A stretch of 64,000 bases of DNA, taken from positions 310,001-374,000 of the forward strand of contig JAQZBR010000001.1 in the NCBI GenBank assembly GCA_029237775.1. Direction: 5' to 3'. The notes below the pieces were generated by a model. It saw only the letters and a program-made list of their open reading frames with translations, had not been told where the DNA came from and ran no database searches. Each line of letters opens with the position of its first letter. Positions within the stretch are counted from its first letter, which is position 1. Made by a program: the position numbers and the translations under genes. Positions 22,559 through 49,043 of the stretch are shown one piece after another. Origin of the DNA: Bacteroidota bacterium. Its GTDB lineage: Bacteria > Bacteroidota > Bacteroidia > 2-12-FULL-35-15.

Positions 22559-24052
22559 TTATAATTTTTTTGCAGGCAGATTTACCAATGCAGGTCCTTC
22601 AATCACAACTCCATCAAAATTAAAGCGGCTGCCATGACAAGGACAATCCCAGCTCTTTTCAGCAGAATTCCAGTTAACGACACATTTCATGTGCGTGCAC
22701 ACTGCGGAGCAAACATGTTTTGTTCCCAGCTCGTCTTTATAGACAGCCAGTTTCTCACCATGCGCTTCGATCACTTTTCCTTCACCCGGACGGATATCGC
22801 TTAACTCTTCACCTGTCCATGGAACATCCTTCAGATACTGCATCATGTTATCAGTATTCTCTTTAAAGAATTCCTTGAAAGATTTTATCGGGGTTACCCT
22901 GCTTAGCTTATAAGTATCTTCGTAAATATTCTCTTTCCCCAGGATCAGATCCGTAACTATCATAGATGCAAGCGTTCCATACACTAAACCATCAGTTGCA
23001 AAACCTGTAAGAAAATAAAGTGACTCACCATGTTTACCTATGTACGGCAAGCCGTCAGCCGGAGTGTATTGCTGCCCACCCCAGGTATGAGTAGTAGGCC
23101 CAACGTTAAAATGCGTGCGTAAGTAATCTTCAAGCTTTCTTACATATTCATTTGTATCATCACCCTGGCCGGTTTTATATTTATCACCAATTACCATAAC
23201 ATACTTTTTCCCTTCGCTTTTATACACACGAACAGAATGTTTTGGTTTGTTCATGCTCCAGAAAATCCCTTCAGGCATTTCACCTGATAATAACTCAGCG
23301 GCCACACCATGTTCCCGATAAGGTCCTAAAACAGTTTGCACCATGTACACACCCTTTGGAGTATGTGTAGCCATGATAATATGTTTTGCTTTAACAGTGC
23401 CATGAGCGGTATGTACAAGTCCATTCTTATCGTCTATGTCCACCACCATGCTCTTTTCGAAGATCTCGCATTTTCCCGAAAGGTTTTTTGCAAGTCCTCT
23501 TACATACTTCAACGGATTAAATTGCGCCTGGCCTTCCACCTTTATAGCGCCATGCACTTCGAACGGCAAACCAATATGTGTGTTTTCCGAAACGGTCAGA
23601 CCAGCCTCTGTCAAAGCATCCGTTTCGGCCTTGATGAAATCCTTTATATCATCATCTAAACCTTCCGCGAAATAGTTAAACGATGTACGATAGAAATCAC
23701 AGTCGATATTATACTTTTTAACATTTATCTCGATCATATCAATGGCACGGAAACGGGAATTAACAACTGTCTTCATAACATCGGCACCCCATTTCTTTTT
23801 GATCACCGACAAATGTTCGTCTACCGTACAGTAAAGATTCCCCGTGGAATTGCCTGTTGTTCCCAGTCCGATACGGTGAGCTTCAAGCACTATTACTGTT
23901 TTGCCCGCATCACTCAATTGCAAAGCTGCGGTAAGTCCCGTGATTCCTCCTCCGATCACAACTACATCTGCTTCCCTGTTCCCTTGAAGCTCCGGAAAGA
24001 AAATATCATTAGCTGCGGTAGACTCCCAAATAGAAAGTGATTTGTTTTCCAT
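22559..24052 (-). CDS. FAD-dependent oxidoreductase with C-terminal Rieske domain
   Basis: 497 residues. The N-terminal dinucleotide fold has VVVIGGGITGLTAALQL (residues ~30-46), with the DAO-type body following (FATDGLVYGTLAS near the FAD C-terminal part). The last ~90 residues form a Rieske [2Fe-2S] domain with C-x-H at about residue 451 (CTHMKC) and C-x-x-H at about 469 (CPCHGSRF). Such fusions (YhfW-like) are known in many bacteria; the substrate is not established. Cytoplasmic. The small membrane protein 30 bases downstream may be co-transcribed. Confidence 0.9.
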   Translation of the reverse strand: MENKSLSIWESTAANDIFFPELQGNREADVVVIGGGITGLTAALQLSDAGKTVIVLEAHRIGLGTTGNSTGNLYCTVDEHLSVIKKKWGADVMKTVVNSRFRAIDMIEINVKKYNIDCDFYRTSFNYFAEGLDDDIKDFIKAETDALTEAGLTVSENTHIGLPFEVHGAIKVEGQAQFNPLKYVRGLAKNLSGKCEIFEKSMVVDIDDKNGLVHTAHGTVKAKHIIMATHTPKGVYMVQTVLGPYREHGVAAELLSGEMPEGIFWSMNKPKHSVRVYKSEGKKYVMVIGDKYKTGQGDDTNEYVRKLEDYLRTHFNVGPTTHTWGGQQYTPADGLPYIGKHGESLYFLTGFATDGLVYGTLASMIVTDLILGKENIYEDTYKLSRVTPIKSFKEFFKENTDNMMQYLKDVPWTGEELSDIRPGEGKVIEAHGEKLAVYKDELGTKHVCSAVCTHMKCVVNWNSAEKSWDCPCHGSRFNFDGVVIEGPALVNLPAKKL

Positions 24053-24766: not shown

Positions 24767-25051
24767 GATCGTGTCTTTTTTAATTATAGTCAAAACAATA
24801 TGCCATTTGAACAGTGGTATTTCTGGTGATTTCCTTTCTGGCCCTCGCATTCCGGCTCAGTATATTTACCCGAATTATTCATTACATATTTAGTTGCAAA
24901 ACGTTCCGAAGAGTGAACGAAGCCTTTTAACCCGCTCCGGCATTTGATCCTGGCTCCTAATGAGAATTATTTAAACATTTTCACACCAGATATCCTGTGT
25001 AAACAGGCACACTTTTTTTCTGTTAAAGACAAAAATTTAACCCCGATAAAT

Positions 25052-25606
25052 ATGAAAAAAACAGCCAAAAAACAACAAGCATCAGAAGAGTACGGAATCG
25101 AAGAATCGAAATTAATGAAGTTATTTGAGGACGGACTAAAAGACATTTACTGGGCAGAAAAAGCCTTGACTAAAGCATTACCTAAAATGGCAAAAAAGGC
25201 GACATCTGAAGAATTGATCGCAGCGCTTGAAGATCATTTAAAAGAAACAGAAGCGCAGGTTGAAAAGCTTGAGCAGGTATTTGAAGTGATCGGCAAAAAG
25301 GCGACAGGCAAAAAATGCGAAGCTATGGCGGGACTTGTCAAAGAAGCTGAGGAGATCATGAAAGAAAGTGATAAAGGCGGAATGCGTGACGCAGGAATTA
25401 TTTCTGCAAGTCAGAAAGTTGAACACTATGAAATTGCAACTTACGGTACTTTACGCACATTTGCGAGCACCTTAGGTTTAGAAGATGCTGCAACACTCCT
25501 TGATGAGATTCTGGAGGAAGAAAAAGCTGCTGACATGAAGCTCACGGAAATTGCTGAATCTACGATCAACATTCAGGCAGTTGAGGAAGTTGAAGACGAA
25601 GAATAA
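25052..25606 (+). CDS. YciE/YciF-like ferritin-fold protein (DUF892)
   Basis: 184 residues from ATG 25052 (MKKTAKKQQASEEYG), chosen because similarity begins here. The body fits the DUF892 four-helix bundle: LFEDGLKDIYWAEKALTKA, HLKETEAQVEKLEQVFE, then ISASQKVEHYEIATYGTLR and DEILEEEKAAD. The Glu/His residues are at the usual places for a di-iron site, though binding is not shown. DUF892 proteins are stress-induced in enteric bacteria. It converges with the cyanophycin operon and shares its terminator. Confidence 0.88.
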   Translation: MKKTAKKQQASEEYGIEESKLMKLFEDGLKDIYWAEKALTKALPKMAKKATSEELIAALEDHLKETEAQVEKLEQVFEVIGKKATGKKCEAMAGLVKEAEEIMKESDKGGMRDAGIISASQKVEHYEIATYGTLRTFASTLGLEDAATLLDEILEEEKAADMKLTEIAESTINIQAVEEVEDEE

Positions 25607-25628
25607 TTTTTTTATTCTTACAATCAAA

Positions 25629-25656
25629 AAAAGGGAGCAAAATGCTCCCTTTTTTT
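25629..25656. terminator. Bidirectional terminator between yciF-like gene and cyanophycinase
   Basis: AAGGGAGCA pairs with TGCTCCCTT across AAA. There is a T-run on the plus-strand side and an A-run on the other, so it can stop both converging transcripts. Confidence 0.88.
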
Positions 25657-25680: not shown

Positions 25681-26505
25681 TTATCTTGTTTGTTTTTCTT
25701 CAACACTCATAAGTAATTTCCTTTTCTCTATATCGAATCGCTTGCCTTCACTCAATACATGAAGTGTGAGGCCCTCGATTGTTATCGGTGATCCGTCAGT
25801 TATATCGATAAGATCACTGTATTTGATTGTTATCCCATCCACTATGGCAACCAATCCGGATCCGACCACTTCCATTTCATTGTTATAGATTATAATGGCA
25901 GTGTCCTCCCCCAATCCAACTCCTAACACTGATGGGTTAGCAGCTATTGTTTGTATCAGTCTGCCAAAACGCCCGCGTTGCGTAAAATGCGTATCTATAA
26001 AAAGTGTATTGATAAAATCGAGTCCGTTATTCAATTGCAGTTCACCTTTAATTAACGCATCCTGGCTGCTCCCCGAAACGATCATTGTGCTTGACATGGC
26101 AGCAGCACCCGCGCTTGTACCGGCAATAATAAAGTTCTTTTCTTTGAGATACCGTTCTTTAAGAACTTTAAGAAAACCTGTCCCTCCGAGAATTGTCGTT
26201 AGCTTTAGTTGATTACCACCGCTGAAATACACTATGTCACAATTCTTCAGATCGGTGAGAATTTCCTGATCGCTGGCCTTTTCGCGATTCTGAATATCCG
26301 CGATCTTAACAACGGCTCCAAGATCCCTGAATGCTGATCTGTAATCACCGGCAACCTCGTCCGATATATTTGAGGCCGTTGTAATCACCTGAACCACCGG
26401 TTTTTCTTTCCCACTAAGCTCAATAACCCTTTCAAGGATTATCTTACTGTCTTCTTTGTCTTCTCCACCACCTATCGCGACTAATATTCCCTTTGGATGC
26501 TCCAT
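25681..26505 (-). CDS. cphB: Cyanophycinase
   Basis: 274 residues from ATG 26505 (a TTG two codons upstream is the alternative). Serine peptidase of family S51, cytoplasmic. The nucleophile serine lies in IIAGTSAGAAAM (about residue 130), with GILVAIGGGEDKEDS at the N-terminus and DTHFTQRGRFGRL and GVGLGEDTA further on, all canonical for cyanophycinases. It cleaves cyanophycin to beta-Asp-Arg dipeptides. No export signal, so it acts on internal granules. Last gene of the cyanophycin operon, six bases after the DUF3606 gene. Confidence 0.93.
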   Translation of the reverse strand: MEHPKGILVAIGGGEDKEDSKIILERVIELSGKEKPVVQVITTASNISDEVAGDYRSAFRDLGAVVKIADIQNREKASDQEILTDLKNCDIVYFSGGNQLKLTTILGGTGFLKVLKERYLKEKNFIIAGTSAGAAAMSSTMIVSGSSQDALIKGELQLNNGLDFINTLFIDTHFTQRGRFGRLIQTIAANPSVLGVGLGEDTAIIIYNNEMEVVGSGLVAIVDGITIKYSDLIDITDGSPITIEGLTLHVLSEGKRFDIEKRKLLMSVEEKQTR

Positions 26506-26511
26506 ATGCAA

Positions 26512-26691
26512 TTATTTTCGTTTCAGGAACTCTTCCACTTTCTCAGAAGAGGTTCCCACTTTATTTACTGCTTCTGCTAACTGCTCTTTAGAACAATTAA
26601 ATTTTTTTGTCCAATACTGCACTTCATAATCTTCATGAATATTGACTCTCCCTGAATCCTGCGGATTACGTTTTTCTTTGCTGTCTGACAT
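26512..26691 (-). CDS. DUF3606-family small protein inside the cyanophycin operon
   Basis: 59 residues, read by hand between cphA and cphB. The start ATG 26691 opens MSDSKEKRNPQDSGRVN, followed by IHEDYEVQYWTKKFNCSKEQ and a helical tail with EKVEEFLKRK. The pattern D-x-x-R-V-N ... E-V-x-Y-W-(T/C)-K-x-x-x-(C/V)-(S/T) matches the small DUF3606 family. Function unknown; such proteins are common as short cytoplasmic stress-type ORFs. Spacing to cphA (32 bases) and cphB (6 bases) makes co-transcription very likely. Confidence 0.85.
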   Translation of the reverse strand: MSDSKEKRNPQDSGRVNIHEDYEVQYWTKKFNCSKEQLAEAVNKVGTSSEKVEEFLKRK

Positions 26692-26723
26692 AGTTTATTG
26701 TTTTTTTAAGGTTTATACTATTA

Positions 26724-29312
26724 TTAACTTAGAGTAAATTCTTCTTTGATCTCATTCACCATTTTCAATGTATCTTTTACCGAATCTGCGTTGAGAATTA
26801 TATACCCTCCGGGTTTTGAATTCTCAAGCGCAAACACAAGCGCTTCTCTCATATCGGGTACTACATTCACCTTAAGATCCTGATTGATCTTAGAGATGCC
26901 TTTTTTGATGAGGTTAACAATACTTTCTGCTTCGCGTCCGCGTGTATCTTTGTCAACCCTGATCACTACCTCATCGTAGATCTCAGCAGCGAGCCTTCCG
27001 ACTTCCTCAATATCTTCATCACGCCTGTCGCCAACACCCGTGATAATTCCGGTTTTATATTCCTTGATATTATTCATCAGCTCAGAGAAAGCTTTAATGC
27101 TGTGTGGATTGTGAGCATAGTCAACCATCACTTTTTTATCAGCAACGTCAATGATATTTAATCGTCCCGGTGCCTGCTTCTCATTCATCTCGAATGAGCG
27201 CAATGACTCTTTTATCTTATCGACCGGGAACTTCAGGATATATGCAGCAAGAGCCACCGGCAATACATTCTCGATCATGAAACCGGCTTTGCCTTCCATT
27301 GTCACGGGAATATTCTTCACCTGATCAATGATGATCTCTTTGCTGCCATCACGAATCACAATATTTTCACCATCCTGCACTGCAGCGATGCCCCCCTTTT
27401 TACAGTGATCAGATATACAGATATTTTTAGGGTCCCGGCTGAACAGTGCAATGTTGCACTGAATATGTTCCGCCATATTATACACAAGATCGATAGAGGC
27501 ATTCAGTATTGCATAACCATCTTTCTTTACCGAGCGAGGGATAACTTCCTTCACTCTCGCCATATCTTCTACCGTATAAATATCCTGCATTCCAAGATGG
27601 TCGGCAGCAACATTTGTCACGATCCCTATATCGCACTGGTCAAAGGCAAGACCTGAGCGTAAAATACCACCCCTGGCACATTCCAGCACTGCAAAATCAA
27701 CACAAGGATCATGAAGCACAACCTCCGTGCTCTTCGGCCCGGAGCAATCTCCACTCACCACTTGCTTACCGTCAATGTAAATCCCATCCGTTGTTGTAAA
27801 ACCTGTTTTAAATCCCTGTTGCTGCACTAAATGAGCCATGAGCCTGCTGGTAGTTGTTTTTCCGTTCGTGCCGGTAATTGCAACGATGGGAATCCTTCCT
27901 TCTTTATTTTCAGGAAACATCATGTCGACAATTGCTTTCCCAACATTTCTCGGAGTTCCGGAAGAAGGTGCAATGTGCATCCGTAAACCGGGAGCGGCAT
28001 TCACTTCAATTATAGAACCTCCGTTCTCGCTGAATGATGTTGAGACATCAGGAGCCATGATGTCGAGCCCGCAGATATCCAGCCCGATAACACGTGCTGC
28101 ACGCTCTGCAAACAATACGTTATCAGGATGAACTTCATCTGTGACATCTTCTGCTGTTCCACCTGTGCTCAGATTTGCTGTGTCTTTTAATATCTGGATC
28201 TCTCCTTTTTCAAGTACAGAATCTAGCGTACGGTTTGCGATCTTCAGGAGATTTAAAGTGATCTCATCCACTTCAATTCTTGTAAGAATACTTCCGTGTC
28301 CTTTGCCTCGTGCAGGGTCCGTATTCACATTGCGGATCAGTTCGTCTATGGTTGAAACGCCATCTCCGACCACCAGAGCCGGGGAACGCTTTGCAGCGGC
28401 AACCAGCTTGTAGTTGATCACAAGAAACCTGTAGTCGTATCCTTTAATGTGTTTTTCGACAATCACTTTGCGCGAATACTCCCTTGCAGTTTGAAAACCT
28501 GCAACAAGCGTTTCAAATTTTGTAATATCGGTGGTGATGCATTTTCCCTGATGGCCGTTCAATGGCTTTGTAACCAAAGGATAGCCGATCTTTCGAACAG
28601 CTTCTTCCAGCTCTTCCTCTTTGGTGATCACAACTCCGCGCGGCACCGGAAGCATTGCATCCGCGAGAAGCTCTTTTGTAAGGTTTTTATTCCCGGCAAT
28701 GTCGACTCCTATCATACTCGTTGCATCGGTTAATGCAGCTTCGATCTTCCGCTGATATTTGCCATATCCAAAGAGGATGTATCTTCCATCTGCAATTCTT
28801 TTGACAGGAATATTTCTGCTTACCGCTTCATCGATGATAGATGATGTACTTGGACCGTCATCATTCCGTTCGCTTATATCTTTTAAGAGCTTTAAACCTT
28901 CGGGAATAAAATCTGTTTCTTCGTTATATATCAAAGCGTTGATTATGTCTGCTGCGAGATAAGCGGCTTCAACACCATGCTCTTCATCCTTGTATTCAAA
29001 CACAGAATAAAACGAAGACTCTCCAAGCAAGTGTCCGTGATAGTATGAAACACCTGAAGTGCTGATCGTCTGAAGCTCAGTCCCTGTAAGTGCGAGCAGT
29101 CTTGCAACCGAGAGCAGAACCGGATGGCCGGCTGCATAGGTCTTGATCTCATTGATATCTTTATGTATCGGGGGAAAAATATTTACCAGTCCGATACAAA
29201 GCTTATCAAGATCAATATTTTTTGATTCAGCGATATCTATCTTTAAAACGATCAGCTTGTGATTGTCCGACCAGATATTCGGGCCGCGCATTACTTTCAA
29301 TTCTTTAATCAT
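26724..29312 (-). CDS. cphA: Cyanophycin synthetase
   Basis: 862 residues from ATG 29312 (MIKELKVMRGPNIWSDNHKL), which matches the family N-terminus; an upstream start at 29345 would overlap the previous gene by 8 bases. Domains in order: N-terminal domain to ~160; ATP-grasp (~200-470) with GYPLVTKPLNGHQGK; and a Mur-ligase-like half with P-loop ITGTNGKTTTSRLM at about residue 480, VLECARGGILRSGLAFDQCD and VDYAHNPHS. It polymerises aspartate with arginine side chains (beta-Asp-Arg)n, using ATP, without a ribosome. Length is as expected (~870). The first cyanophycin-specific gene after the isoaspartyl peptidase. Confidence 0.96.
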   Translation of the reverse strand: MIKELKVMRGPNIWSDNHKLIVLKIDIAESKNIDLDKLCIGLVNIFPPIHKDINEIKTYAAGHPVLLSVARLLALTGTELQTISTSGVSYYHGHLLGESSFYSVFEYKDEEHGVEAAYLAADIINALIYNEETDFIPEGLKLLKDISERNDDGPSTSSIIDEAVSRNIPVKRIADGRYILFGYGKYQRKIEAALTDATSMIGVDIAGNKNLTKELLADAMLPVPRGVVITKEEELEEAVRKIGYPLVTKPLNGHQGKCITTDITKFETLVAGFQTAREYSRKVIVEKHIKGYDYRFLVINYKLVAAAKRSPALVVGDGVSTIDELIRNVNTDPARGKGHGSILTRIEVDEITLNLLKIANRTLDSVLEKGEIQILKDTANLSTGGTAEDVTDEVHPDNVLFAERAARVIGLDICGLDIMAPDVSTSFSENGGSIIEVNAAPGLRMHIAPSSGTPRNVGKAIVDMMFPENKEGRIPIVAITGTNGKTTTSRLMAHLVQQQGFKTGFTTTDGIYIDGKQVVSGDCSGPKSTEVVLHDPCVDFAVLECARGGILRSGLAFDQCDIGIVTNVAADHLGMQDIYTVEDMARVKEVIPRSVKKDGYAILNASIDLVYNMAEHIQCNIALFSRDPKNICISDHCKKGGIAAVQDGENIVIRDGSKEIIIDQVKNIPVTMEGKAGFMIENVLPVALAAYILKFPVDKIKESLRSFEMNEKQAPGRLNIIDVADKKVMVDYAHNPHSIKAFSELMNNIKEYKTGIITGVGDRRDEDIEEVGRLAAEIYDEVVIRVDKDTRGREAESIVNLIKKGISKINQDLKVNVVPDMREALVFALENSKPGGYIILNADSVKDTLKMVNEIKEEFTLS

Positions 29313-29337
29313 ATTGTTTCTGATTACTGGCTTATTA

Positions 29338-30270
29338 TTATTCATAAATCTTCACAAATGGCTTTCTGCCTTCCATTCTGTAGCCGCGGTGCATTCTTTT
29401 ACAATTGAATACAATTCCGACATTGCCTTCAGGGTCTAAAGCGATCACGCCTATATCTCCCTTTTCATCACCATTTTCATCGGACACCACAAACTCACAG
29501 GCTTCCTGCACGTTCAATTTTTTATACTGCATTGCACATCGTATGGAAGAAGCAAGCACAGATTTTACAATGAACTCACCGTCACCGGTTGCTGATACTG
29601 CGCAAGCCCGGTTATTAGCATAGCAACCCGCACCTATCACAGAGCTATCACCTATCCTGCCTACCTTACAATTAGAGGTTCCTCCAGTAGAAGTTGCTGC
29701 CGCCAGATTTCCTTCCCGATCGAGCGCTACGGCCCCTACTGTCCCATGATATTTCTTGTTGATCTCGCTAAGGGCAATCTCTTTCGAATCCAGGAATTCC
29801 TCTTTACGTTTTTTCGCAAATGAATCGTATTGATGTTCAGTAATAAAATAAGCATCCGGCTTCAACGCTATATTGATTTTTTTGGCATAATCAAGAGCAC
29901 CGCCAGCACCCAGATAACGGTAATTTGTATTGAGCATAATCGCCTTTGAAAGTGAAACCGGATTCTTTACATTTTTTACGATAGCCACAGCACCGGAATT
30001 AAGATTCTTCCCATCCATGATTGAGGCACACATCTCCACCTCGCCATCCGCATTCAGAGCTGATCCTCTCCCTGCATTAAATAAAGGATTATCTTCTAAC
30101 GCCTTTACTGCTGTTTCAACAGCATCTACGGCTGAGCCATTCTCTTTAAGGATTTTGTATCCCGCTTCTAAAGCCCTTTCAATTCCTTCCTCATACTCTT
30201 TTTTATACTTGCGGATAAATTCAGAGTCTTCACCTGCACCTCCATGTACTGCAATAGCTATTTTACTCAT
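29338..30270 (-). CDS. Isoaspartyl peptidase / plant-type L-asparaginase (Ntn hydrolase)
   Basis: 310 residues from ATG 30270 (MSKIAIAVHGGAG). Ntn-hydrolase proenzyme that self-cleaves before the nucleophile Thr in KYHGTVGAVALDREGNLAAA (about residue 176), then TSTGGTSNCKVGRIGDS and GAGCYANN, the family signatures. No signal peptide, so cytoplasmic. The family splits beta-aspartyl dipeptides; next to cphA and cphB the obvious substrate is beta-Asp-Arg released by CphB, giving free Asp and Arg. Overlap is avoided with the ATG chosen for cphA (25-base gap). First gene of the operon. Confidence 0.93.
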   Translation of the reverse strand: MSKIAIAVHGGAGEDSEFIRKYKKEYEEGIERALEAGYKILKENGSAVDAVETAVKALEDNPLFNAGRGSALNADGEVEMCASIMDGKNLNSGAVAIVKNVKNPVSLSKAIMLNTNYRYLGAGGALDYAKKINIALKPDAYFITEHQYDSFAKKRKEEFLDSKEIALSEINKKYHGTVGAVALDREGNLAAATSTGGTSNCKVGRIGDSSVIGAGCYANNRACAVSATGDGEFIVKSVLASSIRCAMQYKKLNVQEACEFVVSDENGDEKGDIGVIALDPEGNVGIVFNCKRMHRGYRMEGRKPFVKIYE

Positions 30271-32107: not shown

Positions 32108-32758
32108 TTAAACATTATCAGCGAACTTCTCAATATTCACATTTTTCAGAATGCCATTGACGATAGCATATTTTATAAGAGCTGAAGTATTTTTACAATG
32201 TGTTTTGTCGATAAGATTTTTGCGGTGCGTTTCAACCGTACGCTTGCTTAAGAATATTTTTTCAGCGATCTCCTTGTTTGTTAACCCTTCAGCAAGAAGC
32301 TCAAGAACCTGAAGCTCTCGTTTGGTCAGCTTCACATCATCAGCGGGTTTTGTTTCTATAGCTTTTTTCTTAAGTTCAGCACTGATATAGACATTTCCTG
32401 CTGCCACTTCATGAATCGCATGGATCAATTCATCCTTCCCGGTATTTTTTAAGACGTAGCCATACGCTCCGGCACGGAGCAACTGATTCAGATAATTAAC
32501 ATTATCGAGCATCGAGAGGATCAGAACTTTTACATGCTTGTATTCTGCAGCGATTATCTTAGTGGCCTCGATGCCATTCATGACCGGCATGTTAATGTCC
32601 ATTAATACAACATCAACAGGTGTTGTTTCAAGATAATCCAATAATACTCTTCCATTTGGAGCATCTGCAACAACCTGGATGGATTCCTCGTGCTTCAATA
32701 GCGAACGTAATCCTTCTCTTAAAATATCATGATCTTCAGTAATAATTATTCGTAGCAT
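32108..32758 (-). CDS. LuxR/NarL-type response regulator
   Basis: 216 residues: receiver domain (1-~125) with ITEDHDILREG, phospho-acceptor Asp in DVVLMDINMPVMNGIEATK and KDELIHAIHEVAAG; and a LuxR-type helix-turn-helix (~145-205) in KLTKRELQVLELLAEGLTN and KIFLSKRTVETHRKNLI. It regulates transcription after phosphorylation, most likely by the HisKA_3-type kinase encoded just upstream at 32829. A -7 box at 32776-32783 may give it an extra promoter. Confidence 0.93.
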   Translation of the reverse strand: MLRIIITEDHDILREGLRSLLKHEESIQVVADAPNGRVLLDYLETTPVDVVLMDINMPVMNGIEATKIIAAEYKHVKVLILSMLDNVNYLNQLLRAGAYGYVLKNTGKDELIHAIHEVAAGNVYISAELKKKAIETKPADDVKLTKRELQVLELLAEGLTNKEIAEKIFLSKRTVETHRKNLIDKTHCKNTSALIKYAIVNGILKNVNIEKFADNV

Positions 32759-32775
32759 TTGTAATATTTAGCTTA

Positions 32776-32783
32776 CAAATATA
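32776..32783 (-). promoter_or_regulatory. -7 box before the LuxR-type regulator
   Basis: Minus-strand TATATTTG (TAnnTTTG), 17 bases before the ATG at 32758 and after the kinase stop, so the regulator could be expressed without the kinase. Confidence 0.4.
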
Positions 32784-32828
32784 AGAAACAGCACCGTTGG
32801 AGATTTGAGTATTAGTACGGGAAGATCC

Positions 32829-33995
32829 TTATACAGAGACTGTTACTGTGGTACCTTTTCCACACTTCGACTGTATTTTCATTGAACCGCCCATTAATTC
32901 AAGACGATTATAAATAGATTTCAAGCCGGAACCTTTCACTGATGCCTTATCAGTTTCAAAGCCGAAACCATTATCTTTCACCACGATTTCAATCTTATCT
33001 CTGCCTTTTTTCACAAGTATATGTGCTTTGCTTGCACCTGAATGCTTCAGCACATTATTTAAAAGCTCCTGAATGATTCTGAAAATGTCAGTTTCACGAT
33101 CATTAGACAGTCTTTTCTTTACACCAATAACATCGCATTCCAGTTTAAAAGTTTTTGTAGAGAACCTTCGTGCCACTTCATCAAGTATTACCTTCAGCCC
33201 AAAATCCTTTAACAAGGCAGGCATAAGCAGAAAGGAGAGATTCCGGGTCTCGGAAATCGCCTGATCAAGCAATCCAGCTATCTCTGTTTTAACACTCTTA
33301 TTTTCCTTAACATCCTCAAGCTTGAGCTTCGTGGCATACAGTAATTGCCCTAAACCGTTATGAAGTGCTTCCGCGATCCTGCTGCGTTCATCCTCCTGCG
33401 TCTGTAAGATCGTATTCAGAATTTGTTTCTGCTGAAGTAATTTTTGATGCGCGTACCTTTCCTCTTCCTCTTTCCTAAGAGTCACATCAATGATCGCCAG
33501 TTGAACAGTAAATGAATTATCATCCTTATCATTAAAAAGGACACCTTCCATCTGCACAAACCTGGAAGTATTTAAGAGTTGGATCTCGGACACATTCTTT
33601 CCAACATTGTTCCTGAGTCCTGAGAAAAAAGAATAAAATACCGGGATGTGCTCCGGAACCACAAACTCTGAAAAGCGTCTGTTTGTGGCTTTTCTTGCAG
33701 TGATACCCAAAAGGCCCAATCCCTTTTCATTTGCTTCGAGAATGATCCCCACGTTGTTAAGGGTAAAGAATCCAACCGGAGCCATGTCAAAAAGGGAAAG
33801 GTATTTATTCCTGGATTTTTCAAGTTCATGCTGTGCAGACTTAAGCTCTTCGTTCTGCATCTCCAGCTCGATCTTATGGACCTGCAATTGCTGAACAAGC
33901 TCTTTAACATCTGATGCATCGTTATACTCATCAATCGAGGATACCGATGTTTCCGGCACTCTTTTACGAATTATTTTTGGTTTGGACGTTTTCAT
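32829..33995 (-). CDS. PAS-domain sensor histidine kinase (HisKA_3/LuxR-partner type)
   Basis: 388 residues from ATG 33995; a GTG at 34001 that overlaps the upstream stop is the alternative. Coiled-coil/linker first (VQQLQVHKIELEMQNEELK), then a PAS domain (~80-190, KYLSLFDMAPVGFFTLNN). The phospho-acceptor helix ERSRIAEALHNGLGQLLYA with its HN-x-LGQ follows, and a C-terminal HATPase (RIIQELLNNVLKHSGASKAH and VKDNGFGFETDK, GSGLKSIYNRLELMGG). No membrane segment, so it senses an internal signal. Typical partner of NarL-type regulators, here the gene 71 bases downstream. Confidence 0.93.
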   Translation of the reverse strand: MKTSKPKIIRKRVPETSVSSIDEYNDASDVKELVQQLQVHKIELEMQNEELKSAQHELEKSRNKYLSLFDMAPVGFFTLNNVGIILEANEKGLGLLGITARKATNRRFSEFVVPEHIPVFYSFFSGLRNNVGKNVSEIQLLNTSRFVQMEGVLFNDKDDNSFTVQLAIIDVTLRKEEEERYAHQKLLQQKQILNTILQTQEDERSRIAEALHNGLGQLLYATKLKLEDVKENKSVKTEIAGLLDQAISETRNLSFLLMPALLKDFGLKVILDEVARRFSTKTFKLECDVIGVKKRLSNDRETDIFRIIQELLNNVLKHSGASKAHILVKKGRDKIEIVVKDNGFGFETDKASVKGSGLKSIYNRLELMGGSMKIQSKCGKGTTVTVSV

Positions 33996-33997
33996 TT

Positions 33998-36985
33998 TCA
34001 CTCCTTCCTGCCTTGCTTATCAATTCTAATTGTGACGACAATAAGCTTCTTTTCCTTCATTTTTGTTGGCATTTGTCTAACAGTAGCCATTAAGGTTTTG
34101 CTCCCCGCAACCTTGCTTTTTAATTCCAGTTCAGTTATATCTATTTTAGACTTTTTGCCCGCGTCAAGCTTCCTTTTCAATTCAGGGAAGTGTAAGCCTG
34201 CGGTTTTAAATAAATTAAAACCGACAACCTGTTCGGAGCTGATCTTAAAAAGTTTCCTGAACGATTGATTCACGGAAACAACCTTGTAATCATAATCCAG
34301 AACAATTATTGCATCAGGGAGGCTGTTAATAATCCCCTCTGAATATTCCACAGCATCACTCAGGCTGTTCTCCAATTGTTTCATTTTGGTGACATCAATA
34401 AAGGCAAGGACCACACCTGCAATAAAATTCTCGCTTGTACGGTATGGCGTGATCCTTAAGGAATACCACTTCCCCTTTCTTGAGGGGACTGTTATCTCCT
34501 TAGTGATGAGCTTCAGCAAGACTTCCTTCAGTTCTTTTTCAAGTGATTTGTAATTTACGATGAGTGAAAGGTTTGAAAGCGGACGCCCTACATCGGAAGG
34601 AATAAGCTTAACAATTTCCGCAGCTTTAGGAGTAAATTTTTTGATCAGTAAATTATTATCAAGGAAGATGGTTGCAATTTCCATACTGTCCATCAGGTTG
34701 CGCATGTCGTTGTTTGTCTGGCTCAACTCATCGGACTTAAGCTGGTATTGAACATTAATGGACATCAACTCCTCGTTCAGCGACTGCATTTCCTCCTTCG
34801 AAGTAATTGATTCTTCATTGGTACTTTGAAGCTCTTCATTGGTACTCTGCAATTCTTCGTTAGAGGATTTCAATTCTTCAAATGACGTTTCCATTTGCTG
34901 AATAGTACTTTCCAGTTGAAGGCGCGTTTTAGTCAATTCTTTTTCAAGCTCAAGAATTATATCCGATTCTTTGCTTCCTGTTTTTTTCAAACGCGTGCTC
35001 TTTACGTCTTCTTTAACACCAAGATCTTCAAAGATTATCATGATAAGGCCTTCAAGAGGGGATGGATCTTTAATATACGAACAGGTAAGTCTTAAAATAT
35101 GATCCGTTCCGTTAATATTCAGAACAACACCTTCCCTGATCTGCGTACTTTTATTCGTGGTGCTTTGTGTAATCAGCCTGCTCAACTCATAACGAATCCC
35201 CGTTTTCGCGATCTTGTAAATATTCATATTCGGTTCACCGGTGCCAATTTCCACAAAACGGCTCAACGAACCATTAACATACAGCACATCTCCTCTTTCA
35301 TTCATAATCAGTGAAGGAGGAGTGTATTTTTCCAGAAGAATATTTTGGAATACCTCCGGTAGATTATTCTTATTCATTTTTAGTAAGTCATTCACCGTAG
35401 TTAAGGTTTGTACCGGAGGTGTCTCATAACGTGGGAGCGTAAAGCTGTAATCCATAGATGAAAAGGAGACAACATCTTTTCGTTTGAATATTCTCAATCG
35501 GTTATTCACCGGATTAAACAGATCACTGTAAATGCCTACCGTTTCGGAGTTACCAAGAAAAAGCAAGCCTTCCTTATTCAAAGAATAATGGAACAACGGA
35601 ACCAGCTTCTTTTGCAATTCAGAATTCAGATAGATCATCAGGTTTCTGCACGACAATAAATCGACTTTCGTAAATGGTGAATCCTTAATGATATTATGCT
35701 GAGCAAAAATGATCATTTCACGAATCTCCTTTTTTATGATGTAATGATTGTTCTGATGAATAAAAAATCGGTTCAAACGTTCTTCAGTAACGTCACCTGA
35801 AAGGTTGTCAAAATAAATTCCTGTCCGTGCTTTCTCAATCGCTGCCGCATCAAGGTCCGTTGCAAAGATTTGGACCCTTTTTGAATTGGACATATTTAGC
35901 TTTTCCATACATTCCTTGAGGACGATTGCAAGAGAGTACGCTTCTTCACCCGTTGAACATGCAGCGACCCAGAAACGAACAGGCTCATTTTCCTGTTTTG
36001 ATTCAAGCAAACTCAATAAAGGCTTCTCCAACTCTTCAAACGCTTCCTTATCCCGAAAAAATTTTGTTACACCGATCAGAAGCTCTTTAAAAAGAACATC
36101 AATTTCATGACTGTTTTCCCGCAGATAATTTACATACTCGGTGATTCCCGAAAGCTGATGAACAGCAATCCTTCGTTCTACTCTCCGGTTGATGGTGCTG
36201 CGCTTATACATTGAAAAGTCGTGACCGGTTTGTGTACGGAGTAACATGAAGATCTTCAACAGCGCATTTTGAATTTTGACATCTACCACCTCTGAAGTGT
36301 CATCACTTTTTATAACCGGATGATGAAAATAATTTAAAAGCTTTTCAGCCATCTCTTCAGGTTGCAGCACATAATCAACAAATCCGGTACTGATCGAAGC
36401 AAGAGGCATGCTGTTAAATTCGGTTGAACCCGGATCCTGAACTATTGCTAATCCAAGAAATTCTTTAATTACTTTAATTCCAAGCTCCCCATCCGATCCC
36501 ATTCCGGAAAGTATGATTGCTGCGGACCGGTCTCGTTGATCCTGCCCGAGGCTTTGAAAGAAAAAGTCAATTGGCATCCTGAAACCTCTAGGCTTTGAGG
36601 GCTCAAGTAATAACAGGCGGCCGTTAAGTATACTGATATCTTTTGCCGGAGGAATAATATAAACACAATTCTTTTGAATCACTTCGCCATCCAATGCCTG
36701 ACGCACTTTCATTTTGGTATAACGCTGAAGTAATTCCGGCACCATACCCTTTTTTGTTGGATCCAGATGCATCACCACAATGAAGGCCATGCCGATTCCT
36801 GCGGGCACATTTGTAAAGAATTGCTCAAGAGCCTGAAAAGCCCCTGCAGAACCGCCAATCCCAACAACAGGAAAATCTATATTGTTGTTTTCCAAAGGAA
36901 CAATCGACTTTTTTTTAGTCAACCGGCTCCCTTTTTTAAGAGTGGTTTTATAAATAGGATTAACAGGTTCTTTCTTTTTTTTCAT
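33998..36985 (-). CDS. CheB-CheR fused PAS protein
   Basis: 995 residues from ATG 36985 (the TTG at 36994 is the alternative). Domains in order: CheB methylesterase (~35-225) with catalytic Ser in VGIGGSAGAFQALE, His in VVMHLDP and Asp in LSGMGSDGELG. Next is CheR methyltransferase (~250-490) with GVTKFFRDKEAFEEL and VAACSTGEEAYSLA. A coiled coil (~690-780) repeats EELQSTNEE, and two PAS domains follow. No receiver in front of CheB. Such hybrids occur in organisms lacking flagella; they are thought to methylate/demethylate signalling proteins, not chemoreceptors, but targets are unknown. The kinase gene begins two bases after its stop. Confidence 0.93.
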   Translation of the reverse strand: MKKKKEPVNPIYKTTLKKGSRLTKKKSIVPLENNNIDFPVVGIGGSAGAFQALEQFFTNVPAGIGMAFIVVMHLDPTKKGMVPELLQRYTKMKVRQALDGEVIQKNCVYIIPPAKDISILNGRLLLLEPSKPRGFRMPIDFFFQSLGQDQRDRSAAIILSGMGSDGELGIKVIKEFLGLAIVQDPGSTEFNSMPLASISTGFVDYVLQPEEMAEKLLNYFHHPVIKSDDTSEVVDVKIQNALLKIFMLLRTQTGHDFSMYKRSTINRRVERRIAVHQLSGITEYVNYLRENSHEIDVLFKELLIGVTKFFRDKEAFEELEKPLLSLLESKQENEPVRFWVAACSTGEEAYSLAIVLKECMEKLNMSNSKRVQIFATDLDAAAIEKARTGIYFDNLSGDVTEERLNRFFIHQNNHYIIKKEIREMIIFAQHNIIKDSPFTKVDLLSCRNLMIYLNSELQKKLVPLFHYSLNKEGLLFLGNSETVGIYSDLFNPVNNRLRIFKRKDVVSFSSMDYSFTLPRYETPPVQTLTTVNDLLKMNKNNLPEVFQNILLEKYTPPSLIMNERGDVLYVNGSLSRFVEIGTGEPNMNIYKIAKTGIRYELSRLITQSTTNKSTQIREGVVLNINGTDHILRLTCSYIKDPSPLEGLIMIIFEDLGVKEDVKSTRLKKTGSKESDIILELEKELTKTRLQLESTIQQMETSFEELKSSNEELQSTNEELQSTNEESITSKEEMQSLNEELMSINVQYQLKSDELSQTNNDMRNLMDSMEIATIFLDNNLLIKKFTPKAAEIVKLIPSDVGRPLSNLSLIVNYKSLEKELKEVLLKLITKEITVPSRKGKWYSLRITPYRTSENFIAGVVLAFIDVTKMKQLENSLSDAVEYSEGIINSLPDAIIVLDYDYKVVSVNQSFRKLFKISSEQVVGFNLFKTAGLHFPELKRKLDAGKKSKIDITELELKSKVAGSKTLMATVRQMPTKMKEKKLIVVTIRIDKQGRKE

Positions 36986-36991
36986 ATAAAT

Positions 36992-36999
36992 CAAATATA
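36992..36999 (-). promoter_or_regulatory. -7 box immediately before the CheB-CheR gene
   Basis: Minus-strand TATATTTG ends six bases before the ATG at 36985, which puts the transcription start at or beside the start codon. Confidence 0.45.
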
Positions 37000-40424: not shown

Positions 40425-41408
40425 ATGGTCAACAGGACAAAACAATCGAGGCCACTCCTGGTTTTTTATCTTCTTGTTATATATGTGTTTCTCCAGTTTA
40501 CCTGGTGGACATATTCCATGTTCCAGCTTAATAACGAAATTTCCCGATTAAAAACAGAACTGAACCTTATTAAAGGGGAGTCCTCAGACCAGATCATATC
40601 AGAAGGAAACAGCATCAATGAAAAACTGCACAAGCGCTGGGTCATGATCTCCAGTGAAGGGGCTGTATTTATCGGTCTTTTAATGATCGGCTTTTTTCAG
40701 ATCCGTAAAACATTCAGGAAAGAAAAAGAGCTCGCTGACCGACAGACTAATTTTCTGCTTTCTGTAACCCATGAATTAAAATCACCGATAGCCTCGGCCA
40801 AGCTTCAACTCCAGACCCTTCAAAAACATGAGCTCGACAAAGAAAAAAAACAGGAAATAATTGCGAACGCGATTAGTGACACAGACCGCTTAAATAATCT
40901 GGTTGAAAACATATTGCTTGCCGCAAAAATAGATAACAGTAACTTTCAGCTTCATCTGCAAAACACGGATCTCTCTGATTACATCGAAGAGAACATGACT
41001 CAAATGATCAAGCTTTTCAATTACAGGCAAAAAGTAATTCTTGATATTGAACCAGGTATTAGTCTTCCAATCGACCGAACTAGCTTTCCTTCGATCATTA
41101 TCAATCTGTTTGAGAATGCCGTTAAATATTCTCCTCCTGATTCAACAATAACTATCGCCCTTAAGAAAAAAGATGGCAAAGTAAAGCTCAGCGTTATCAA
41201 TGAAGGGAAAAGCATTGCAGCTGAAGACAAGAAAAAGATCTTTGAAAAATTCTATCGTGTGGGCAATGAAGATACAAGACAAACGAAAGGCACGGGCCTT
41301 GGCTTGTATATTGTGAAACACATTGTGCAACAACACAATGCGACTATTATTCTAAAAGACAATATTCCAGAAGGTAGTATTTTTGAAGTATGTTTTAACC
41401 AAATTTAA
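40425..41408 (+). CDS. Membrane sensor histidine kinase
   Basis: 327 residues. Two membrane helices (~12-30, LLVFYLLVIYVFLQFTWW, and ~75-92, AVFIGLLMIGFFQI) frame a short periplasmic loop. HisKA follows with the phospho-acceptor in SVTHELKSPIASAKLQLQTL and a HATPase domain (IIINLFENAVKYSPPDSTI, FEKFYRVGNEDTRQ and GTGLGLYIVKHIV). It lacks HAMP and PAS domains. Its stop is only two bases from the gpmI start, and the pair looks co-transcribed; no receiver follows in the same unit. Signal unknown. Confidence 0.92.
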   Translation: MVNRTKQSRPLLVFYLLVIYVFLQFTWWTYSMFQLNNEISRLKTELNLIKGESSDQIISEGNSINEKLHKRWVMISSEGAVFIGLLMIGFFQIRKTFRKEKELADRQTNFLLSVTHELKSPIASAKLQLQTLQKHELDKEKKQEIIANAISDTDRLNNLVENILLAAKIDNSNFQLHLQNTDLSDYIEENMTQMIKLFNYRQKVILDIEPGISLPIDRTSFPSIIINLFENAVKYSPPDSTITIALKKKDGKVKLSVINEGKSIAAEDKKKIFEKFYRVGNEDTRQTKGTGLGLYIVKHIVQQHNATIILKDNIPEGSIFEVCFNQI

Positions 41409-41410
41409 AG

Positions 41411-42931
41411 ATGAAAAAAGCAGCGCTTATTATATTAGACGGGTGGGGAATTGGTGACGGTTCCTTATCGGATGCAATTACAAATGCGCATACTCCTTTT
41501 GTTGACAGTCTTTATGTTCAATATCCGAACAGTGTCCTCGCCACCTCCGGAGAAGATGTGGGTCTTCCTGCAGGACAAATGGGTAACAGCGAAGTCGGCC
41601 ACCTGAATATAGGTGCCGGAAGAGTCGTATATCAGGATCTCGCGCTCATCAATAAAGCTGTCCGAGAAAAAACCATTGACAATCACCCGGTACTTTTAAA
41701 TGCTCTTGAGCATGCAAGAATAAATAATAAGAATGTACATTTTATCGGACTTGTATCAGAAGGGGGCGTACATTCATCGCAGGCACATTTGCATCGTTTA
41801 TGCGACATGGCGAATGAAAAAGGGTTGAAGAATGTATTTATACACGCTTTCACCGATGGGCGCGATACAGATCCGAAAAGCGGACTTGCATGCATTACCA
41901 ACTTACAGGAGCATCTTAAAAACTCAACAGGTAAAATTGCCAGCGTCATCGGAAGGTATTATGCAATGGACCGGGATAACCGCTGGGAGCGTGTAAAGCT
42001 TGCCTACGATCTACTCGTGCGTGGTGAAGGAAAAGAATCAACCGACATTATCAATTCCATTCATGAATCTTATAATGAGAACATCACTGATGAATTTATA
42101 AAACCCATCGTGCATGTTGATAATACAGGGAAACCATTAGCCACAATTCAGGAAGGTGATGTGGTGATCTGTTTTAATTTCAGAACTGACCGTTGCCGCG
42201 AAATCACCGTTGCGCTGACACAGCATAATATTCCTGAGCAGGGCATGCATGCATTATCGCTACACTACGTAACGATGACTAATTATGATAGTACTTTTAA
42301 AAATGTGCATGTAGTGTATGACAAGAGTGATTTAAGAATGACGATCGGTGAAGTGCTTGAAAAAGCAGGAAAGACGCAGATCAGGATCGCGGAGACGGAG
42401 AAATACCCTCATGTTACATTTTTCTTCTCAGGAGGAAGGGAAACGGAATTTATCGGTGAACGCAGAATTATGGCAGCTTCTCCAAAGGTTCCTACTTATG
42501 ATCTGAAACCGGAAATGAGCGCTTATGAACTCACCGAATCCATAGTACCCGAATTAAAAAACGGAACCGCTGACTTTGTTTGCCTGAATTTTGCAAACGC
42601 TGACATGGTTGGCCACACCGGTGTGTACGAAGCAGTTGTAAAGGCTGTAGAAACGGTTGATCAATGCCTTCAGCAAGTTGTAGAAGCCGGATTGGAAGGA
42701 GGGTATTCATTTGTTATCATTGCTGATCATGGCAATTCAGACTATATGATCAACCCTGACGGCAGCCCGAACACAGCGCACACTGTTAATCCGGTACCAA
42801 TCATCCTGATCGATAAAGATTATAAAAAAATCAGAAAAGGGAAGCTCGCTGACATCGCACCCACAATACTGACACTGATGAATTTAAATATTCCGACTGA
42901 GATGACAGGTGAAGTTCTGGTAAATAATTAA
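41411..42931 (+). CDS. gpmI: 2,3-bisphosphoglycerate-independent phosphoglycerate mutase
   Basis: 506 residues. Glycolysis/gluconeogenesis enzyme interconverting 3- and 2-phosphoglycerate with Mn2+; alkaline-phosphatase superfamily. Signatures: ALIILDGWGIGDG at the N-terminus, catalytic Ser at about residue 60 in GQMGNSEVGHLNIGAGR, HAFTDGRDTDPKSG, GRYYAMDRDNRWERV, and the metal ligands in VIIADHGNSD with NTAHTVNPVP. Length is canonical (~510). It is transcribed two bases after the histidine kinase gene, an odd but tight pairing. Confidence 0.97.
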   Translation: MKKAALIILDGWGIGDGSLSDAITNAHTPFVDSLYVQYPNSVLATSGEDVGLPAGQMGNSEVGHLNIGAGRVVYQDLALINKAVREKTIDNHPVLLNALEHARINNKNVHFIGLVSEGGVHSSQAHLHRLCDMANEKGLKNVFIHAFTDGRDTDPKSGLACITNLQEHLKNSTGKIASVIGRYYAMDRDNRWERVKLAYDLLVRGEGKESTDIINSIHESYNENITDEFIKPIVHVDNTGKPLATIQEGDVVICFNFRTDRCREITVALTQHNIPEQGMHALSLHYVTMTNYDSTFKNVHVVYDKSDLRMTIGEVLEKAGKTQIRIAETEKYPHVTFFFSGGRETEFIGERRIMAASPKVPTYDLKPEMSAYELTESIVPELKNGTADFVCLNFANADMVGHTGVYEAVVKAVETVDQCLQQVVEAGLEGGYSFVIIADHGNSDYMINPDGSPNTAHTVNPVPIILIDKDYKKIRKGKLADIAPTILTLMNLNIPTEMTGEVLVNN

Positions 42932-43044
42932 TTATTCCTTTAGCACGGGGTTAATTTTCTGAATTTTAATTTTACCGAAATTCCAATCTGGCATGCAGCT
43001 GGAACCGTTTTTGAGGTATCCCGGTGAAATTAATTGATTTTATT

Positions 43045-43455
43045 ATGGTATACATTATTGATGATGACAGTGAAGATCTGGAATTAATAAAAACTGCATA
43101 TGATGAAACGAAAGCTTCCGAGGATATAATTGCCTTTGAAGATGGAAGAGATTTTCTTAACTATATCGAATTAAAAGAAAACAGTAAAAAATCTCCTGCA
43201 TATATCCTTACTGACCTGAAAATGCCGGCTTTGGACGGAATACAGATGATCGAGATCTTCCGTTCGAATAATAAGTATAATATCATTCCTGTTGTCATGC
43301 TTTCCACCTCCAATTTAAATTACGACATCGAACGCGCGTATAAATGCGGAGTGAATTGTTTCCTCACCAAACCGGATACCTATAACGGCTGGAAAGCCAC
43401 GGTAGACAAAATAGAGCTGTGGGTAAAACGTTGGTATGAAGCGCATCAGGTGTAA
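43045..43455 (+). CDS. Single-domain response regulator
   Basis: 136 residues from ATG 43045 (MVYIIDDDSEDLELI); GTG at 43024 is the alternative. Receiver fold: acidic pocket IIDDDSED, phospho-acceptor Asp in YILTDLKMPALDGIQ, Ser/Thr in VVMLSTSNLNYD and Lys in FLTKPDTYNG. No output domain. Lies between gpmI and a PAS kinase, likely a partner of one of the kinases here. Confidence 0.9.
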   Translation: MVYIIDDDSEDLELIKTAYDETKASEDIIAFEDGRDFLNYIELKENSKKSPAYILTDLKMPALDGIQMIEIFRSNNKYNIIPVVMLSTSNLNYDIERAYKCGVNCFLTKPDTYNGWKATVDKIELWVKRWYEAHQV

Positions 43456-43530
43456 AAATATTTCTCACTCTGAGGAATTAGGACCACACTTGCTTCAATC
43501 CCTTGATTCGGTCTAAAATTTTTTCAACAA

Positions 43531-43551
43531 TCTCAAAGTACATCTTTGAGA
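43531..43551. other. Inverted repeat downstream of the receiver gene
   Basis: TCTCAAAG and CTTTGAGA are perfect complements around TACAT. No T-run follows, so it may be an operator for the kinase gene downstream, or a weak terminator. Confidence 0.35.
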
Positions 43552-43737
43552 ATTTCCATTTTTCACGGCCCCTAGCAGAAGCTCAGCAAAATCAATACTT
43601 TTAGAGGGCCGGCAGCTTCTAAGGCTCTACCGACCAACGATCGTGGAACATTTGAAAGACGTAACGCATTGATTACGAATGATTATGGCATCATTATAGG
43701 CATTCAGCAGTGCCCCGTTATCAAAGTACCGTCTGCC

Positions 43738-45342
43738 ATGACTACCAAAAAGAAAAACAGTGACACCCTTACCGGAAAATCTAAATCTCTTCCCGGAATT
43801 GATCAGCTTCAGCTTCAGATGTTGCAGGGACTTCCTGCAGCCACATACACCTGCGATTCCAAGGGAAGGATAACATTCTATAACGAAGCCGCTGCTAAGT
43901 TATGGGGCCGTGAGCCTAAGCTTGGTGTGGATCAATGGTGCGGTTCATACAAATCTTACAGGACAGATGGTGCTCCCGTACCATCAGAAACATCTCTGAT
44001 GAGTGTTGTACTGAAAGAAGGACGGGCTGTTACAGGCGAAGAGATAGTTATGGAACGTCCTAACGGTGAACGTTTACATGTGCTTCCACACCCACGCCCA
44101 ATATTTGACAGCAAAGGAAATCTTGTAGCTGCCATCAACACTCTTATCGATATAACCGATCTTAAAAAGGTTGATAATGCTTTGCGTGAGAGCGAAGTTC
44201 GCTTTCGCACAGTTGCAAACACTGCCCCTGTTCTGATCTGGATGTCGGATAAAAACAAAAACTGCACTTTTTTTAACAAAGGCTGGATGGACTTTACCGG
44301 CCGCACTTTTGAAGAAGAGGCCGGAATTGGCTGGGTAAAAGGTTTACATCCAAATGATCTTGAAAAGTGCATGAATATGTACGTCACTTCATTTGAAGCA
44401 CGAAAGAATTTTTATCTTGAATACCGCCTTCGCAGACATGATGGAGAATATCGCTGGATCGCGAGCAGAGGAGAACCAAGATATTTGCCTGATGGGACAT
44501 TTGAAGGTTTCATTGGTTCCTGCACTGACATCAACGATTCAAAAATGAATGCTGCAATCCTTGAAGAAAGAATTGCTGAACGAACAAAAGCTTTGAACGA
44601 GGCAGTCATTCAACTTGAACGCTCCAACCTTGAGCTGGCACAATTCGCATATGTAGTTACACATGATCTGCAGGAGCCGCTTCGTAAAGTAAAAACGTTT
44701 ACCGACAGGCTCATGGTAAAGACCGCCCGTAAGCTTAATGAGGATGAGAACTTATATCTGATGAAGATCAAGAACTCTGCAGACCGCATGTCTGGGCTCA
44801 TCAAAGATGTTTTAAACTATTCGATCCTTACAAGATCTGCTGAACCTTATATACCTACAGACCTTAATTACATTGCGAAACATGTTCTTACGGATTTTGA
44901 ACTTTTGATCACTCAGAAGAAAGCTACAGTTGAACTTGGCGAACTTCCCGTGATTGAAGCTGTGCATCTTCAAATGAATCAGCTGTTCAACAACCTTATT
45001 GGAAACAGCCTGAAGTTCACCTCATCAGAAAAGAAACCGGTGATCAAGATCAGTTCATCGGATGTTTCCGAAGTGGAGAAAACTGCCTACCGTCTTGACC
45101 GCAACAAGCGATATGTAAAAATCAGCTTCGCGGATAACGGTATTGGATTCAACCAGGAATACGCAGAGCAGATCTTTGAGATCTTTCAGCGACTGAATGG
45201 CAATGATGAATATCCGGGAACAGGAATTGGCCTGGCACTTTGTAAAAAGATAATCTCAAATCATCAGGGAACGATCCATGCTGAATCTAGTCCGGGCGTG
45301 GGAGCTACGTTTCATGTTTTACTTCCTAAAAAACAATTCTGA
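43738..45342 (+). CDS. PAS-domain soluble sensor histidine kinase (phytochrome-type HisKA)
   Basis: 534 residues from ATG 43738 (MTTKKKNSDTL); the upstream 23 codons look like leader. Two PAS domains: ~28-145 (QGLPAATYTCDSKGRITFYN) and ~150-280 (RTVANTAPVLIWMSDKN, with the PAC motif YRLRRHDGEYRWIASRGEPR). A coiled-coil linker follows. The HisKA has its acceptor in FAYVVTHDLQEPLRKVKTF, as in phytochrome-like kinases. HATPase: QLFNNLIGNSLKFTSSEKKP and ADNGIGFNQEYAEQIFEIF. No membrane segment, so it senses an internal cue. The cognate receiver may be the one at 43045. Confidence 0.93.
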   Translation: MTTKKKNSDTLTGKSKSLPGIDQLQLQMLQGLPAATYTCDSKGRITFYNEAAAKLWGREPKLGVDQWCGSYKSYRTDGAPVPSETSLMSVVLKEGRAVTGEEIVMERPNGERLHVLPHPRPIFDSKGNLVAAINTLIDITDLKKVDNALRESEVRFRTVANTAPVLIWMSDKNKNCTFFNKGWMDFTGRTFEEEAGIGWVKGLHPNDLEKCMNMYVTSFEARKNFYLEYRLRRHDGEYRWIASRGEPRYLPDGTFEGFIGSCTDINDSKMNAAILEERIAERTKALNEAVIQLERSNLELAQFAYVVTHDLQEPLRKVKTFTDRLMVKTARKLNEDENLYLMKIKNSADRMSGLIKDVLNYSILTRSAEPYIPTDLNYIAKHVLTDFELLITQKKATVELGELPVIEAVHLQMNQLFNNLIGNSLKFTSSEKKPVIKISSSDVSEVEKTAYRLDRNKRYVKISFADNGIGFNQEYAEQIFEIFQRLNGNDEYPGTGIGLALCKKIISNHQGTIHAESSPGVGATFHVLLPKKQF

Positions 45343-46614: not shown

Positions 46615-46647
46615 CTTTTAGAATTTTGAACTTTACTAAATTTTCTT

Positions 46648-48507: not shown

Positions 48508-49025
48508 TATTCCTGCTCCTTCTTACGGTTAAATAAAAACTGAATCACTACAATAAGTAATAATGTTGCGAGCGAACTTATGATGACTCTTAATAAAGTA
48601 GAAAAGAACTCGGAGAAACGAAAGATCTCCAGATAGAATAGTACCAGATGATGCGATACTACAAGGATCGCAGAATATGAAAGAAACCACGGTATTCCGA
48701 GATACTGAATGGTTGGTTGAGTACCCGATTCATAACCATCACGCGGTGAAAACAATTTAAGAATCCCCGGACGCATATAAGCCATTACTACACAGGCAGC
48801 CGCATGAAGTCCGGCCGTATCATAAAACATATCGATGGTAAGACCCAGAATAAATCCGATGAAAAGAATAGCCCATTTTGGAGTTTCAAATGGAAGTATG
48901 ATAAGGAAGAGTGTGTAAATAAACGGATTAATAAATCTCCCCAGCTCAATATTTTTAATGATGAGCACCTGCACCAGAACAAGTGCAACAAATCGAAATA
49001 TATTTCTGAGTAATTCGGTGATCAC
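48507..49025 (-). CDS. mreD: Rod-shape-determining protein MreD
   Basis: 172 residues, mostly hydrophobic with about five to six helices (FVALVLVQVLIIKNI, FIYTLFLIILPFETPKWAIL, IGFILGLTIDMFYDTAGLH). Start is GTG 49025. MreD is weakly conserved at sequence level; identity rests on the helix pattern, the FxxGxxxDxxY-type segment and the position between mreC and mrdA. It forms part of the elongasome membrane complex. Confidence 0.9.
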   Translation of the reverse strand: MITELLRNIFRFVALVLVQVLIIKNIELGRFINPFIYTLFLIILPFETPKWAILFIGFILGLTIDMFYDTAGLHAAACVVMAYMRPGILKLFSPRDGYESGTQPTIQYLGIPWFLSYSAILVVSHHLVLFYLEIFRFSEFFSTLLRVIISSLATLLLIVVIQFLFNRKKEQE

Positions 49026-49043
49026 CTTATTGTATTTTTATGT

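Follow-up and report, generated by a model that had tools for sequence, protein, structure and literature searches.

Four genes on the minus strand of a 64,000-nt stretch of a Bacteroidota genome (the window) most plausibly form an operon for the synthesis and recycling of cyanophycin, a nitrogen-storage polymer; its synthetase would belong to a rare, primer-dependent subfamily of Bacteroidota CphA1 and would elongate chains primed by its paralogues. We hold this reading, drawn from sequence comparison and predicted structure, with moderate confidence. The genes formed one compact run in the order iaaA, cphA, a DUF3606 gene and cphB, an arrangement that had been claimed in the sequence-only reading and was borne out by ORF positions and family matches. 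Their likely start codons, chosen because relatives share them, were the ATGs at 30270, 29312, 26691 and 26505, respectively (the mechanical cphA ORF begins at 29345). The intergenic gaps were 25, 32 and 6 nt, and the four genes are likely co-transcribed.

All four products scored above the cut-offs of their family models. CphA (862 aa; 26724–29312, minus strand) matched TIGR02068 with 1018.8 bits (cut-off 850) over positions 2–861 of 862, and was a full-length N-G-M protein, the architecture that defines the CphA1 family. Its fold, as predicted by AlphaFold2 (pLDDT 85), had as best solved match the substrate-bound structure of TeCphA1 (7wae; TM 0.92). CphB (274 aa; 25681–26505, minus strand; peptidase S51) matched TIGR02069 with 232.9 bits (cut-off 126.6), aligned to the cyanophycinase structures 7uqv (4.5e-58) and 3en0, and contained the Ser nucleophile in the GTSAGA elbow, which together identified it as a cyanophycinase. 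Both TIGR02068 and TIGR02069 are curated NCBIfam models at the equivalog level. IaaA (310 aa; 29338–30270, minus strand), an isoaspartyl peptidase/plant-type asparaginase of the Ntn hydrolase type, matched Asparaginase_2 with 329 bits (cut-off 27) and the L-asparaginase structure 2zak with 1.5e-61. Its Thr nucleophile region (HGTVGAVALD) was kept and ORF residue 180 aligned with residue 1 of the mature beta subunits in solved structures, the place of the Thr nucleophile in the IaaA family. The 59-aa DUF3606 protein (26512–26691, minus strand) matched PF12244 with 84.7 bits (cut-off 24.3).

Downstream of cphB, a hairpin with flanking A/T tracts was found at 25626–25656 (−21.9 kcal/mol for an 81-nt stretch, z = −4.05). 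It lay between cphB and a converging DUF892 (YciE/YciF-like) gene on the plus strand (24944–25606; PF05974, 197.3 bits), and by this position can in principle serve as the terminator of both; the earlier description of a shared terminator was therefore fair. A consensus scan missed this predicted terminator, probably since the T tract forms part of the paired stem, and the promoter-like matches of the consensus scan were no more numerous than in shuffled sequences. DUF892 genes, 72% identical where they align, adjoined two separate cyanophycin loci of the genome (the window and L007:8684–9274), a hint that these loci may be regulated together with stress genes. One flank of the operon region encoded an FAD oxidoreductase–Rieske fusion protein (22559–24052); on the opposite flank (32108–36994), inspection by eye suggested a LuxR-type response regulator, a PAS histidine kinase and a CheB-CheR-PAS hybrid.

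The active sites of CphA were not all preserved. In alignments to SuCphA1 and Bacteroidota CphAs, the N domain (28857–29312) had lost its Cx19HxxEH metallopeptidase site, with C59, H79, E82 and H83 replaced by N, R, A and L; the protein thus lacked the motif that defines the primer-independent class of CphA1. This site cuts cyanophycin into primers, and its mutation reduces or abolishes primer-independent activity; CphA1s without it are primer dependent, and a primer-dependent CphA1 turns primer independent when an N domain is given in trans (PMC9262961). The window CphA is likely primer dependent, and from its lost site we infer that it would be unable to cut its own primers.

A second change was found in the G-domain ATP-grasp P-loop (TKPLNGHQG; 28546–28571), which read LNGHQGK compared with LDGNHGR in SuCphA1 and LDGNHGR or LDGNHGK in active enzymes. 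The His was displaced by one place (N266H, codon 28553–28551) and position 267 was occupied by Gln (H267Q, codon 28550–28548; SuCphA1 numbering); counted from the ATG at 29312, these are H254 and Q255. His267 has the gamma-phosphate of ATP on one side and the end of the chain on the other, and plays an important part in both of the characterised enzymes (PMC9427784). Since Ala at this position inactivated SuCphA1 and lowered the activity of TeCphA1 (PMC9262961, PMC9427784), the G domain of the window CphA could be inactive or altered. The nine other residues compared in the G domain, which adds Asp, were all kept (K220, K261, R309, R323, N394, S396, D431, E450 and R458), as were all residues checked in the M domain, which adds Arg (K499, T500, T522, E558, D585, H586, R731 and H748), and the M-domain P-loop GTNGKTTT (27849–27872) and the DH were present. 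Activity with the GHQG loop seems more probable than its absence; the shifted His266 or Gln267 might take over the role of His267, which is a guess. The sequence-only reading had all catalytic motifs of the operon intact. This held for GTNGKTTT, GTSAGA and the IaaA Thr, but not for the CphA N site, which was absent, or for the ATP-grasp loop, with GHQG in place of GNHG. Among 62 CphA sequences surveyed, SuCphA1 included, 55 had both the N site and His267. A single one of the 62 (L014; G057 C69) combined an intact N site with Gln267 (VDGNQGK), and its sister (L069) has His.

These losses bear on an alternative that follows the sequence-only reading: an ordinary CphA1 operon with a self-sufficient, fully working synthetase and two degrading enzymes, in which the altered residues make no difference to function. 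The equivalog-level NCBIfam matches, a predicted fold that fits active CphA1 structures and the retention of most catalytic residues all agree with it. However, all four residues of a site needed for full primer-independent activity were gone and a His important in both characterised enzymes was replaced, and we consider this alternative unlikely.

The altered loop was not confined to the window. GTDB genomes were scanned with the aligned CphA sequences of the window and of genome G009 and with patterns that included the peptide TKPL[ND]GHQ; this recovered four GHQG-type loci (L071, L072, L073 and L076, of which L072 is that of G009), all in Bacteroidota metagenome-assembled genomes (MAGs) and at 55–67% identity. 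The window CphA and these four relatives formed one clade with full support, and in all five the loop reads GHQG and the N site is dead. The GHQG type is rare, because the exact DNA pattern of the loop occurred in 1 of 395 phylum genomes. Every named relative that was found is a MAG, so the source lineage has apparently not been cultured.

Across the G and M domains of the GHQG CphAs, codon position 2 differed at 12–19% of sites and position 3 at 57–68%, a difference that indicates purifying selection on both domains. The N domain evolved approximately twofold faster than the rest of the protein. This faster evolution, the lost N site and the replaced catalytic His could be expected of a decaying or purely structural paralogue, which would not catalyse and would at most assemble with active CphAs. 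Such a role is very improbable: the frame was open in all members, the G and M domains are apparently under purifying selection, and all other catalytic residues were conserved across 55–67% identity. The pattern, as read from the sequences, is not that of a decaying gene.

Five substitutions, N266H, H267Q, A281L, A472G and F793Y, were fixed across the subfamily, the first and the last three at positions invariant in the canonical set compared; D620S/C was a further clade-specific change. Such fixation looks like selected change and, together with the presence of CphA paralogues with conventional loops in the same genomes, would fit a neofunctionalised ligase, in which the G loop and A472G, D620S/C and F793Y alter the substrate, for instance to beta-Asp-Arg dipeptides as in CphA2 or to other amino acids. 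We regard this as improbable, given that the M-domain catalytic residues and the Asp-binding residues N394, S396, R323 and R458 were kept, that CphA2 is smaller and matched the window CphA over only part of its length, and that the window copy is grouped with cyanophycinase and isoaspartyl peptidase genes.

Besides the window operon, the genome (G000; 4.08 Mb in 12 contigs) has further cyanophycin loci: in total it contained four full-length cphA genes (C5, C7 and two on C1), four cphB genes above the cut-off (C5, C1, C7 and C4) and two iaaA genes. Two of the three cphA genes outside the window had all three active sites intact. The C1 locus (L007:5083–13142; G000 C1, about 41247–49105) comprised five genes in this order: an N-intact cphA, an iaaA in reverse orientation, a DUF892 gene, a cphA without the N site and cphB. 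Three further genomes of the genus had the same order (G009, L040; G018, L042; G028, L041). The downstream cphA genes of this locus type make up a second N-dead group, whose GNHG loop is normal and which has N-intact CphAs beside it. A single shared loss of the N site in both N-dead groups was rejected (AU p = 4.7e-6); the groups did not form one clade, and the site was therefore probably lost more than once. The fourth cphB (L099:978–1862, at the start of G000 C4) was approximately 1 kb from the contig end, and no adjacent cphA was found. Since the C7 cphB is divergent from a cphA and the C4 cphB is near a contig end, a further cphA may have been lost in an assembly gap there.

Each of the five genomes with a GHQG-type CphA also encoded one or more N-intact CphAs: G000 (C1, C7), G751 (L107), G752 (L104, L108), G753 (L106) and G754, identical to G009 (L105). 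This co-occurrence is consistent with primer supply in trans, but is weak evidence, because 29 of the 36 genomes in the genus, about four fifths, encode a full-length CphA anyway and such co-occurrence would often arise by chance. Priming of the window CphA by its paralogues may take place, the GHQG-type enzyme extending cyanophycin segments that primer-independent CphAs would supply in the same cell. CphB would then release beta-Asp-Arg dipeptides, and IaaA would split these into Asp and Arg, the reactions by which both enzymes are known at the family level. The family scores, the fold match at TM 0.92, the kept G and M residues, the clade-wide GHQG loop and N-site loss, the purifying selection and the N-intact paralogues all speak for an operon with a primer-dependent synthetase. 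More tentatively, synthesis might be divided among the paralogues, with an N-active CphA making and cutting primers and both N-dead clades (the window GHQG type and the one from the tandem C1 locus) confined to elongation, possibly to another chain length or composition.

One point against the proposed reading is that GHQG-type cphA genes do not regularly have cphB and iaaA beside them, so that the gene arrangement of the window is no fixed module: among the four relatives, one had iaaA only, one had a DUF3606 gene only and two had neither. In G009, iaaA directly followed cphA and was 63% identical to the window iaaA, with neither cphB nor a DUF3606 gene in the stretch around it. A DUF3606 gene 71% identical to that of the window was divergent to the cphA of L076, and no cyanophycin gene neighboured the cphA of L071 or L073. 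DUF3606 as a standard part of cyanophycin operons was considered and rejected, as the strongest other DUF3606 genes checked (G009, G032 and G028) had no adjoining cph gene. None of the papers in the collection searched mentioned both DUF3606 and cyanophycin, and the association between the two is weak.

The sequence-only reading had presented the operon as surprising for Bacteroidota. It is ordinary in this respect: full-length CphA was detected in 154 of 395 class genomes, representing 78 of 196 genera (even draw, E below 1e-200), and the trait was already in print. In a published survey, CphA1 was listed for 86 Bacteroidota genomes; every one of them also encoded cyanophycinase, and an isoaspartyl dipeptidase was recognised in 22%. 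Of all genomes in which CphA1, cyanophycinase and IaaA occur together, about a third have their genes in a cluster (Sharon and Schmeing 2023, PMC10206079). The proposal that the gene set makes and recycles the polymer stood in part. From its gene content, the organism is very probably able both to synthesise cyanophycin and to break it down through several loci, a capacity that does not depend on the window locus alone, since three other cphA (two fully intact), three other cphB and another iaaA lie elsewhere in the genome; as a description of the window CphA, 'intact and complete' fails.

New here are the GHQG subfamily and the mixed sets of N-active and N-dead CphAs; the presence of cyanophycin genes itself was already known. 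As the primer source of primer-dependent CphA1 in cells, the discoverers of the N-domain site could propose only leftover strands or other small molecules (PMC9262961). Genomes that encode N-active together with N-dead CphAs offer a ready-made system in which to test whether primers are supplied in trans, and the GHQG loop provides naturally occurring variation at a residue regarded as essential. The two points are relevant to making cyanophycin in heterologous hosts.

Compared with SuCphA1 (7lg5) and TeCphA1 (7wae), the window CphA had the same full-length three-domain organisation, a predicted fold at TM 0.91–0.92, most of the G-domain residues and all M-domain residues checked. Unlike both, it had no N metallopeptidase site and contained GHQG instead of GNHG. 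The CphA1 enzymes of Tatumella morbirosei (7lgn; PMC9262961) and A. baylyi (7lgm) likewise miss the N motif, both by alignment, but keep LDGNHGR, whereas the window type forms a separate Bacteroidota clade beside N-active paralogues. CphA2 (7ta5, 8fxh) also has no N-domain metallopeptidase motif. However, it shared only 24–25% identity with the window protein, at TM 0.49–0.55 over part of its length, and CphA2 is shorter and has no working M domain, whereas the window CphA was full length with a predicted intact M active site. With the clustered cphA1-cphB-iaaA systems (PMC10206079), the window operon shares three enzymes in one cluster, to which it adds a DUF3606 gene and a non-canonical CphA.
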